A stretch of DNA of 64,000 nt from Kiloniellaceae bacterium (GTDB taxonomy: Bacteria > Pseudomonadota > Alphaproteobacteria > Kiloniellales > J153): NCBI GenBank assembly GCA_021776175.1, contig JAJFGJ010000006.1, positions 62,001 through 126,000 of the forward strand. The letters are read 5' to 3'. The position numbers were made by a program, and so were the translations under genes. The notes under the pieces are model-generated. The model was given only the letters and a program-made list of their open reading frames with translations. It did no database searches and was not told the DNA's origin. Shown here one piece after another: positions 18,871-40,516 of this stretch; position 1 is the stretch's first letter; each line of letters starts with the position of its first letter.

Positions 18871-18936
18871 TCCTCTAAATGCTGGACGACAACCTGGTGC
18901 GCGTCCTCTAAATGCTGGACGACAACCTAGTGCGCG
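18871..18936. repeat. 33-bp tandem duplication upstream of the LysM gene
   Basis: Two adjacent copies (18871-18903 and 18904-18936) beginning TCCTCTAAATGCTGGACGAC differ at one base (GG versus AG near the end). The copy next to the gene contributes the TTTAGAGGA Shine-Dalgarno region; the second copy duplicates it. Confidence 0.85.
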
Positions 18937-25510: not shown

Positions 25511-25781
25511 CTAGGGCCTGTGGACACTTAGGATGCCGCCGAGGCGGGATCGGATTATCCCACCCGTTAGGAGCGGGCGGCGCCGTGTGGCAGGCCCCCC
25601 ACAAGCCGTTCGCGACGCGGCGGGTGGGATAATCCGGCCCGTCCCAACGGGATTGGGCCAAAATGACGCGAGGCCGCGTCGCTCGTCCTTGAATATGCTC
25701 TGCATGTCCTGCGTCCTCGCTCCTACCCTGGCGTAATTTTGGCCCAACCGCGACGGCATCCTAATTGTCCACAGGCCCTAG
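25511..25781. mobile_element. MITE-like element with 28-bp terminal inverted repeats
   Basis: A 271-bp element. The left end 25511-25538 begins CTAGGGCCTGTGGACACTTA and the right end 25754-25781 is its inverted copy with one mismatch. The ends include CTAG, so the target duplication may be TA or CTAG. Two further inverted repeats lie inside: GGATTATCCCACCCG near 25552 against CGGGTGGGATAATCC near 25621, and TTGGGCCAAAAT near 25654 against ATTTTGGCCCAA near 25736. There is no transposase; the short internal ORFs have low-complexity, shadow-like translations. It is probably a non-autonomous derivative of an IS element with TA-type insertion. It fills most of the 400-base gap between the GST and cupin genes. 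Confidence 0.75.
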
Positions 25782-27204: not shown

Positions 27205-27235
27205 TCCCAGCTTGTTGGATTTCACCTAACCTCTT

Positions 27236-27320
27236 TCGTCGTCCCGGACTTGATCCGGGACCTTCGGCCAATCACGAGTCTCGGTCTATGAAAAGATCCC
27301 GGATCAAGTCCGGGATGGCG
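27236..27320. repeat. REP-like palindromic repeat, copy 1
   Basis: An inverted repeat. The left arm is CCCGGACTTGATCCGGGACC (27243-27262), and the right arm GATCCCGGATCAAGTCCGGG (27295-27314) matches it inverted with one difference. It lies between two convergent genes (acetyltransferase and YkgJ-like). Two related copies occur at 36641 and 40427. Confidence 0.85.
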
Positions 27321-27344
27321 AAAAAAGCCGTGGCGCGGCGAGGT

Positions 27345-31450: not shown

Positions 31451-32065
31451 CTACTGGCGCGTCAGAAGGCCTAGTTCGACGCGCTCGCCGCCAAGATTGA
31501 CGACATATTGCATGATCTCGATCTTGGGTGCCTCGAGCGGCGCCTTTCTACCCGAGCTGGCGTCGCTGGTGCCGGCGCTGGCTTCCTGATTCCGGGACAT
31601 CTTGCGGTAGTTCTCGGCCTGACGGGTCAGATCGCTGGACGCCCCTGAAACCGGCTCGGCGGCGACCAGCGCGATATAGTCCGCCTTGCCGTAACGAAAG
31701 CAATTGGTGAAGGGCACGATATAAAATATGTGCTCGTCGCCATTCGGCCCCCCGTACTCCAGATCGACGGTACAGCGTTTGGGACTGGCATAGATCAGTT
31801 TCCCGGCGGTCTGTCCCGGCTCGATCGTGTGGATCCGCAAGCGAACGGGCTGCGGCCGGTCATCGATCCTGATGATCGTCAGCCAGTCTCCGATAAGCAT
31901 TCGCGGCGGAATCAGATTGCGCGACACCGCCCCGATATCCAGCCGGGCCGCCTGTGCGTATGCCGGAGCGACCGCGCCGAGCAAGCCCAGCAGGACAACC
32001 GCCGCGCTCAAGATCGATCTAACCGCTCCGCGTTCTATGGACTCTTGGCCCACGGGTTTCGCCAT
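31451..32065 (-). CDS. Secreted uncharacterised protein
   Basis: A 204-residue exported protein. ATG 32065 with GCGGGA upstream begins a cytosolic stub (MAKPVGQESIERG), then a hydrophobic signal segment (ILSAAVVLLGLLGAVAPAYA). The mature region contains two cysteines (SPKRCTVDLEYGG and VPFTNCFRYGKADY), likely one disulfide, and a Ser/Ala-rich linker before a conserved-looking tail (IEIMQYVVNLGGERVELGLL). I do not recognise the family. It follows gatCAB's upstream edge and is divergent from ruvX. Confidence 0.65.
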   Translation of the reverse strand: MAKPVGQESIERGAVRSILSAAVVLLGLLGAVAPAYAQAARLDIGAVSRNLIPPRMLIGDWLTIIRIDDRPQPVRLRIHTIEPGQTAGKLIYASPKRCTVDLEYGGPNGDEHIFYIVPFTNCFRYGKADYIALVAAEPVSGASSDLTRQAENYRKMSRNQEASAGTSDASSGRKAPLEAPKIEIMQYVVNLGGERVELGLLTRQ

Positions 32066-32141
32066 TCCCGCTATCCCTTCATTGGCATCGAGGCAGCGAC
32101 ACGCTAGACCAGAAAGGTAAAGATCGCGGTAATACCTAGGG

Positions 32142-32166
32142 CTAGGGCCTGTGGACACTTAGGATG
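32142..32166 (+). repeat. Solo copy of the MITE terminal repeat at the start of ruvX
   Basis: CTAGGGCCTGTGGACACTTA followed by GGATG (25 bases) is identical to the left terminal repeat of the element at 25511-25535. No second end is found within the next few hundred bases. The last three bases are the ATG of ruvX. The repeat ends there, so it may be one end of a decayed element. Confidence 0.7.
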
Positions 32167-32631
32167 ATCGTCACTCTCGATACGCTGCCGGGCCTCCTGG
32201 CCCCGGGCCGCCGCCTGCTTGGCTTGGATGTCGGCGAGAAAACCCTTGGCCTGGCGATATCGGATTCTGCGCTTCGCGTGGCCTCGCCGCTGGAAACCCT
32301 GCGCCGGATCAAGTTCACCAAGGACGCCGAAGCCCTGCGTCGGGTCGTGGAGGACCGCCAGGCGGGCGGCCTGATCCTGGGGCTGCCGGTCAACATGGAT
32401 GGCAGCGAGGGCCGGGCGTGCGAATCGGTACGCCAATTCGCCGCCAACTTGGAACAAATCGCCAAGATAGACCTACCCATGGCGTTTTGGGACGAGCGGC
32501 TATCCACCGCGGCGATTCAGCGCTTGCTGATCGACGAGGCGGACATGACCCGCAAGCGCCGGGGGCAGGTCGTGGATAAGATGGCGGCCGCCTACATCCT
32601 GCAAGGCGCCCTGGACGCCCTGGGGACGTAA
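32164..32631 (+). CDS. ruvX: Holliday junction resolvase-like protein RuvX (YqgF)
   Basis: A 155-residue RNase H-fold nuclease, implicated in pre-16S rRNA 5'-end processing. It has the family marks RRLLGLDVGEKTLGLAISD, VVEDRQAGGLILGLPVNMDG and FWDERLSTAAIQRLL, with the acidic residues expected at the active site (D in LDVG, E near the middle, D of DERLS). The ATG at 32164 lies in the last bases of a repeat identical to the MITE end and has no good Shine-Dalgarno. It is the only in-frame ATG before the conserved core. Synteny with gatCAB and pyrB is usual. Confidence 0.9.
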   Translation: MIVTLDTLPGLLAPGRRLLGLDVGEKTLGLAISDSALRVASPLETLRRIKFTKDAEALRRVVEDRQAGGLILGLPVNMDGSEGRACESVRQFAANLEQIAKIDLPMAFWDERLSTAAIQRLLIDEADMTRKRRGQVVDKMAAAYILQGALDALGT

Positions 32632-36640: not shown

Positions 36641-36730
36641 CGCCGTCATCCCGGACCCCGATCCGGGATCTTCGGTAAGGGCCGGACTCGCAACAACCCA
36701 AAGATCCCGGATCGTAGTCCGGGATGACGA
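36641..36730. repeat. REP-like palindromic repeat, copy 2
   Basis: Left arm GTCATCCCGGACCCCGATCC near 36645, right arm GATCCCGGATCGTAGTCCGG near 36703-36722; the arms pair apart from a short internal mismatch. Same architecture and about the same length as copies 1 and 3. Located between dcd and the EamA gene. Confidence 0.85.
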
Positions 36731-40426: not shown

Positions 40427-40516
40427 GTCGTCATCCCGGACTACGATCCGGGATCTTCGGGATGTAGCGAACCCGGTCTTACTCAAAGATCACGGATCGT
40501 AGTCCGGGATGACGAA
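40427..40516. repeat. REP-like palindromic repeat, copy 3
   Basis: Left arm CGTCATCCCGGACTACGATC near 40429, right arm near 40491-40512 (CGGATCGTAGTCCGGGATGA) pairing with it, with one base change (GATCACGG). Located between pyrC and plsY. Confidence 0.85.

Follow-up and report, generated by a model that had tools for sequence, protein, structure and literature searches.

The window, the whole 64-kb stretch of DNA analysed here, carries on its plus strand a ruvX gene (32164-32631; 155 codons and a stop; Pfam RuvX PF03652, E 9.8e-40) whose ATG (32164-32166) forms the last three bases, at the inner edge, of a solitary MITE end. This solo repeat (32142-32166, plus strand) consists of the target bases CTA followed by the 22-base terminal repeat GGGCCTGTGGACACTTAGGATG. 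Its 25 bases are identical to 25511-25535, the left end of a complete family member, a MITE of 271 bp retaining both ends (25511-25781, no strand assigned), and differ by one base from the other end of that element (25757-25781, minus strand). A terminal-repeat profile built from 13 end sequences finds three ends in all in the window, the two MITE ends and the ruvX copy, with no partner for the latter, and in 100 dinucleotide-shuffled versions of the window the 25-mer was never matched with three or fewer mismatches. The initial annotation had recognized the 25 bases as the left MITE end, the ruvX ATG as their last three bases, and the lack of a partner end nearby, all of which is borne out by the exact identity, the shuffles, the RuvX reading frame and the profile; the interval it assigned holds for 32142-32166 only, as identity to the MITE end stops exactly at the ATG (32166) and 32167-32172 are codons 2-3 of ruvX.

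Upstream, a promoter-like block (TTGGCA-17-TAGACC, 32082-32110, plus strand) is conserved in the alignment of our genome (G000) with G001, G002 and G003, and would be a promoter that the MITE-related event left untouched. The stretch of leader common to our genome and G001 ends in CCTAGG (32135-32140, plus strand), ahead of the replacement derived from the repeat. CTAGGG is duplicated just 5′ of the solo repeat, a feature that the insertion-deletion model set out below leaves unexplained. Our ruvX leader folds less stably than all 200 shuffled versions (z +2.18), and its 70-base start region is not unlike that of the congeners. On the minus strand, a divergent ORF without a Pfam match (31451-32158) has, in its longest reading, a GTG start inside the solo repeat; the part that can be aligned to the congeners suggests a start near 32066 (ATGGCG).

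Several features point to the ATG at 32164-32166 as the translation start of ruvX. The TAG of the solo repeat (32143-32145, plus strand) is an in-frame stop 21 nt 5′ of this ATG that closes the frame upstream, there is no in-frame ATG, GTG or TTG between the two, and the next in-frame candidate is a TTG inside the RuvX motif LLGLD, which begins 17 codons after the ATG. The motif is present as written in 24 of 30 ruvX loci (our own and 23 relatives; 6 of 30 lack it in this form), and a start codon lies 18 codons before it in 22 of the 23 relatives and 20 codons before it in the remaining one; our gene alone starts at 17 and has no start codon at 18. The predicted N-terminus is accordingly M-IVTL, as compared with MT-I/V-I/V/A in relatives. 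Anti-Shine-Dalgarno pairing at ruvX amounts to -5.1 kcal/mol in our genome, -3.6 in G001, -2.6 in G003 and -6.2 in G002, which has no clear Shine-Dalgarno site; G004, from another genus, has a GGAG and pairs at -6.6 kcal/mol. The absence of a normal Shine-Dalgarno sequence had been tied to the insertion, an idea that we dropped: since G001 and G003 pair even more weakly than our gene and G002 has no clear site, the weak signal is not a consequence of the MITE event.

The ruvX loci of close relatives, where the initial annotation had proposed to look for the earlier state, provide a form without the repeat. In G001, the closest congener compared, the leader is the same up to CCTAGG (32140), and continues as TTATCTTAGCCGACC-ATGACGATC, with that gene's own start, ATG-ACG, directly after TTATCTTAGCCGACC, whereas in our genome CCTAGG is followed by GCTAGGGCCTGTGGACACTTAGG-ATGATC, with the repeat and its ATG directly 5′ of ATCGTC. 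Relative to G001, about 26 bp stand in place of some 21 bp that contained the previous start codon and codon 2; the codon lost from our ruvX is codon 2, ACG (Thr). The flanks on both sides of the repeat are colinear with G001 and G002. With RuvX of G001 87% identical to ours, the spacer has drifted too far for the exact target site at ruvX to be named. The solo repeat is absent from all 29 other ruvX loci searched, and the 25 bases do not recur there in distant genera as a conserved, non-mobile feature would. Neither an intermediate, with a full MITE at ruvX, nor our own strain's ancestral target sequence is seen in the genomes compared.

The solo repeat belongs to a family whose outer 16 bases occur 17 times exactly in our genome, where the 22-base repeat is matched 24 times with at most three mismatches. 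Some copies have the full length of about 271-298 bp, others keep both ends around an internal deletion (down to 60-66 bp), and others again are single ends; the ruvX copy, with one end only, is a MITE remnant and not an element. Paired copies of 60-298 bp occur in our genome, G002 and G003, and have the terminal inverted repeats and lack of coding capacity that characterize MITEs. They are flanked by TA on both sides, as expected of a target duplication, with YTA at the left and TAG at the right in nearly all cases; one of the paired copies read has CA on the left (C30:35291), and the ruvX solo no longer has its right side. Members of 62-66 bp are near-perfect palindromes, with a hairpin of -54.5 kcal/mol for the one folded. 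As judged by a 24-base end pattern that the ruvX copy also matches, the family is limited to the genus: 3 of 61 genomes of the order contain it, all from the genus of the window. The 16-base tip by itself is found in 6 of 38 relatives, of which four belong to other genera, and in another family of the order a ~272-bp element (L079, G013:C24) combines the same 16-base tips with a different interior, an indication that these ends are common to a larger group of MITEs. A scan of genome contigs, in which our own genome was possibly not included, returned two stretches only, both from the MAG OFTM267 (labelled Kiloniellaceae), and no relatives of ruvX were found on viral contigs.

An insertion sequence with matching ends is present in G001 (G001:C1:1-848). 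It is 848 bp long, its tips CTAGGGTCTGTGGACAATTA are identical to each other over 20 bases and the same as those of the MITE, and its two ORFs match DUF4096 (E 1.9e-27) and DDE_Tnp_1 (E 3.2e-10). Elements of the IS427 group of the IS5 family, as described from Paracoccus, are about 850 bp long and have two ORFs that together carry a DDE domain, short terminal repeats and 2-bp direct repeats (PMC3281130), and the G001 element resembles this group in size, two-ORF layout and 2-bp repeats (PMC3281130). The MITE fits an IS427-type element of the IS5 family, and the shared tips suggest that a transposase of the G001 type may move it. An IS630/Tc1-mariner origin was suggested by the TA inside CTAG, as IS630 elements prefer TA in this context, and was rejected since the matching insertion sequence encodes DUF4096/DDE_Tnp_1 proteins of IS4/IS5 type.

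The solo repeat at ruvX had been read as a singular case, a view that does not survive comparison within the genus. The profile gave 111 matches in our genome and three congeners, from which 29 single ends away from contig ends were picked by hand, usually with 13-36 bases of one end kept; one-ended remnants of ~40-250 bp are nearly absent, with one of 62 bp in G002:C18. For 12 solos, comparison with 31 ortholog stretches of congeners showed the repeat to be absent from the orthologous borders, a single weak match for L175 lying ~1.7 kb further along at a different listed site. At these borders the other side of the solo has lost flank of variable length, and in short operon spacers the solo stands in place of the ordinary spacer, as between mreD and mrdA (25 nt with the repeat in G002, 25 nt without it in G001, 18 nt in our genome). 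For L148, the ortholog spacer is nearly equal in length and, by eye, partly similar. At L147, between genes for a PPIC-type protein and anthranilate synthase I, the spacer is lengthened and CTAG stands on both sides, as in an internally deleted element.

Some of these solos lie directly at translation starts. At G002:C29:91880 (L137, G002:C29:90300-93400, 1582-1605), two DUF1538 genes are separated by nothing but the solo: the first ends in the TAG of the solo, 18 bases follow, and the ATG of the solo starts the second (252 aa), whose orthologs in G001 (GTG) and G003 (ATG) have the start codon in the same position without the repeat. This arrangement is a twin of the ruvX case in an independent assembly. 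Also in G002, a gene starting MTPAARIQ, which we take to be rsmB-like, is preceded by TAA-AGTGTCCACAGGCCCTAG-ATG, with the solo in place of an ordinary spacer, and at L154 the ATG of a PF13769 gene comes directly after GGACA. A short solo at L125 (G000:C22:43000-46200, about 1667-1680) lies 5′ of an ORF of the MTHFR family for which the first start available in frame is a GTG within the repeat, possibly a further start supplied by the terminal repeat.

At their outer tips, the ends are associated with stop codons. By a proxy that requires the TAG frame to be open over 100 codons or more and to be the longest of the three, the repeat's TAG ends a long open frame in 16 of 29 solos, as against 37 of 216 control YTAG sites (one-sided Fisher test, p 2.3e-5), and in 17 of 54 paired ends (same controls and test, p 0.018); the controls come from the window only and most scored ends from G002. 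The remaining 28 profile matches were left out, namely 14 at contig ends, four ends of insertion sequence copies in G001, G000:C2:234453 (joined to another repeat), two weak matches in G003, and seven paired ends outside the scored set or without a readable TAG. The upstream ORF has a Pfam match in 13 of the 16 positive solos; that of L125 was scanned and has none, and L144 and L156 were outside the scan, L156 being perhaps a false positive with another stop just upstream. Longer solos have a stop-position TAG in 5 of 14 cases and the shortest, below 21 bits, in 11 of 15, and the latter are more doubtful remnants. Most simply read, insertion at YTAG re-creates the TAG (TA plus the first G of the element), so that landing in a TAG stop codon would be tolerated, and the pattern suggests that later trimming could not pass the stop codon and so would leave the tip. 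A bolder view, which we hold to be unlikely, makes the repeat a portable module for gene borders: the outer tip would re-create TAG on landing in a TAG stop, the inner edge would offer GG-ATG 18 bases on, and solos would be kept again and again for their use as compact linkers from stop to start and as translation starts, as at the DUF1538 pair in G002 and at ruvX.

For ruvX, we consider it probable that a MITE inserted in the leader, that most of it was then deleted together with flanking DNA, and that the remaining end now starts the gene. An IS5-family MITE of IS427 type would have inserted at a YTAG some 20-25 bp before the original start, and a deletion would then have begun immediately inside the left repeat and extended to codon 3, removing the remainder of the MITE and some 20 bp of flank with the ancestral ATG and the threonine codon. 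From the leftover, one 22-base terminal repeat and target bases, the GG-ATG at the inner edge would have become the in-frame start, and the deletion may have been retained because an in-frame ATG remained. We infer the order of events and the deletion mechanism, for which the near-perfect palindromes of 62-66 bp would be a plausible substrate by losing one arm. An insertion or excision had been proposed as the origin of the ruvX 5′ end; a MITE-related event stands, but not in its simple form, because ~21 bp were replaced by ~26 bp, and insertion followed by deletion is preferred for the same reason. Further support comes from the 12 other single ends at borders that lack the repeat in orthologs, one of which gives the DUF1538 ATG. 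The near absence of one-ended remnants of intermediate length, which plain random deletion would not predict, counts against this account; random decay of full-length MITEs was rejected on this ground, and the solos more likely derive from short hairpin forms or were trimmed by selection.

The main rival to insertion and deletion dispenses with a host deletion step and postulates a transposase scar, in which imprecise excision or aborted transposition left one end and took neighbouring bases. That single ends are common, usually short, and almost never intermediate in length would be consistent with such a process; however, the flank lost on the other side varies at orthologous borders and the kept lengths spread over ~13-36 bases rather than forming one fixed footprint, and we regard a scar as unlikely. 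It is also conceivable that ruvX really starts at another codon and that the repeat is mere leader, as the poor Shine-Dalgarno sequence of the present ATG might indicate, yet the closed frame upstream, the position of the next candidate inside LLGLD and the homologous place of the start in relatives, one codon further out, make this quite improbable.

Still less credit is due to the idea that the 25 bases are a host functional sequence, for instance the motif of a regulator or a leader, to which the MITE bears a resemblance and which is kept at gene borders for its function. The preference of solos for such borders and for TAG stops fits this idea, but the sequence is missing from the other ruvX loci and the orthologous borders of 12 solos, its 24-base pattern is confined to one genus of the order, and paired ends also lie at stop-like TAGs, so that insertion at YTAG would explain much of the preference; a conserved regulatory motif was dropped as an account of the solos because orthologs lack the repeat. 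The least credible explanation, which we scarcely entertain, is an assembly error or a chance match. Our genome is a draft of 39 contigs at 89.65% completeness, but the shuffles speak against chance, the conservation of both flanks in G001 and G002 argues against misassembly, and the independent assembly of G002 has a like arrangement at the DUF1538 gene.

Small repeats that provide stops, sometimes starts of short ORFs, and MITEs that alter gene ends are already in print (PMC3049150, PMC5896051, PMC6382973). BOX repeats of Streptococcus pneumoniae lie at gene 3′ ends and encode the stop codon in 36 of 58 overlapping CDSs, and some BOX-encoded ORFs start in boxC without a Shine-Dalgarno sequence (PMC3049150). 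As observed here, a small repeat at a gene border gives a stop or start codon; unlike at ruvX, BOX starts open ORFs matching hypothetical CDSs only, and BOX stops lie within the repeat (PMC3049150). QMITE2 of Coxiella (PMC5896051) and MITEAba12 (PMC6382973) change gene ends, with truncated copies that lack ends and with start or stop codons near the element ends, but the effects described are C-terminal extension, truncation and fusion; in neither case does a single end take over the start codon of a conserved gene. RUP and Correia elements are MITEs at or fused to genes, and RUP uses TA targets; it is assigned to an IS630 element (PMC2229807), whereas the transposase matching the ruvX MITE is of IS5 type. 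The accessible part of the IS427 paper treats whole elements and holds nothing on MITE ends at gene starts (PMC3281130), and that of a 2024 review of prokaryotic MITEs does not contain "start codon", "stop codon" or "translation initiation" (PMC10969869). A search conducted mostly outside subscription journals brought up no example in which a conserved gene had its start codon replaced by a single MITE end. With the congeners' form at hand, ruvX offers a clean but modest example of a conserved core gene whose translation start has been replaced by mobile-DNA debris, with a bearing on start-site annotation and on the turnover of operon spacers. That a YTAG-targeting element may land in TAG stops without destroying them, its trimmed leftover becoming a gene border, is a rule worth testing.

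Other repeats are present in the window and its relatives. Three REP-like palindromes with CGTCATCCCGGA-type arms lie at 36644-36729, 40428-40515 and 27234-27323, and at G000:C2:234453 (L001) and G001:C17:41792 (L152) the same motif (GTCATCCCGG) comes directly after a solo end, which gives the impression of an encounter between two repeat families. The window also has a pair of 33-base tandem units, nearly identical to each other (97%), at 18871-18936.
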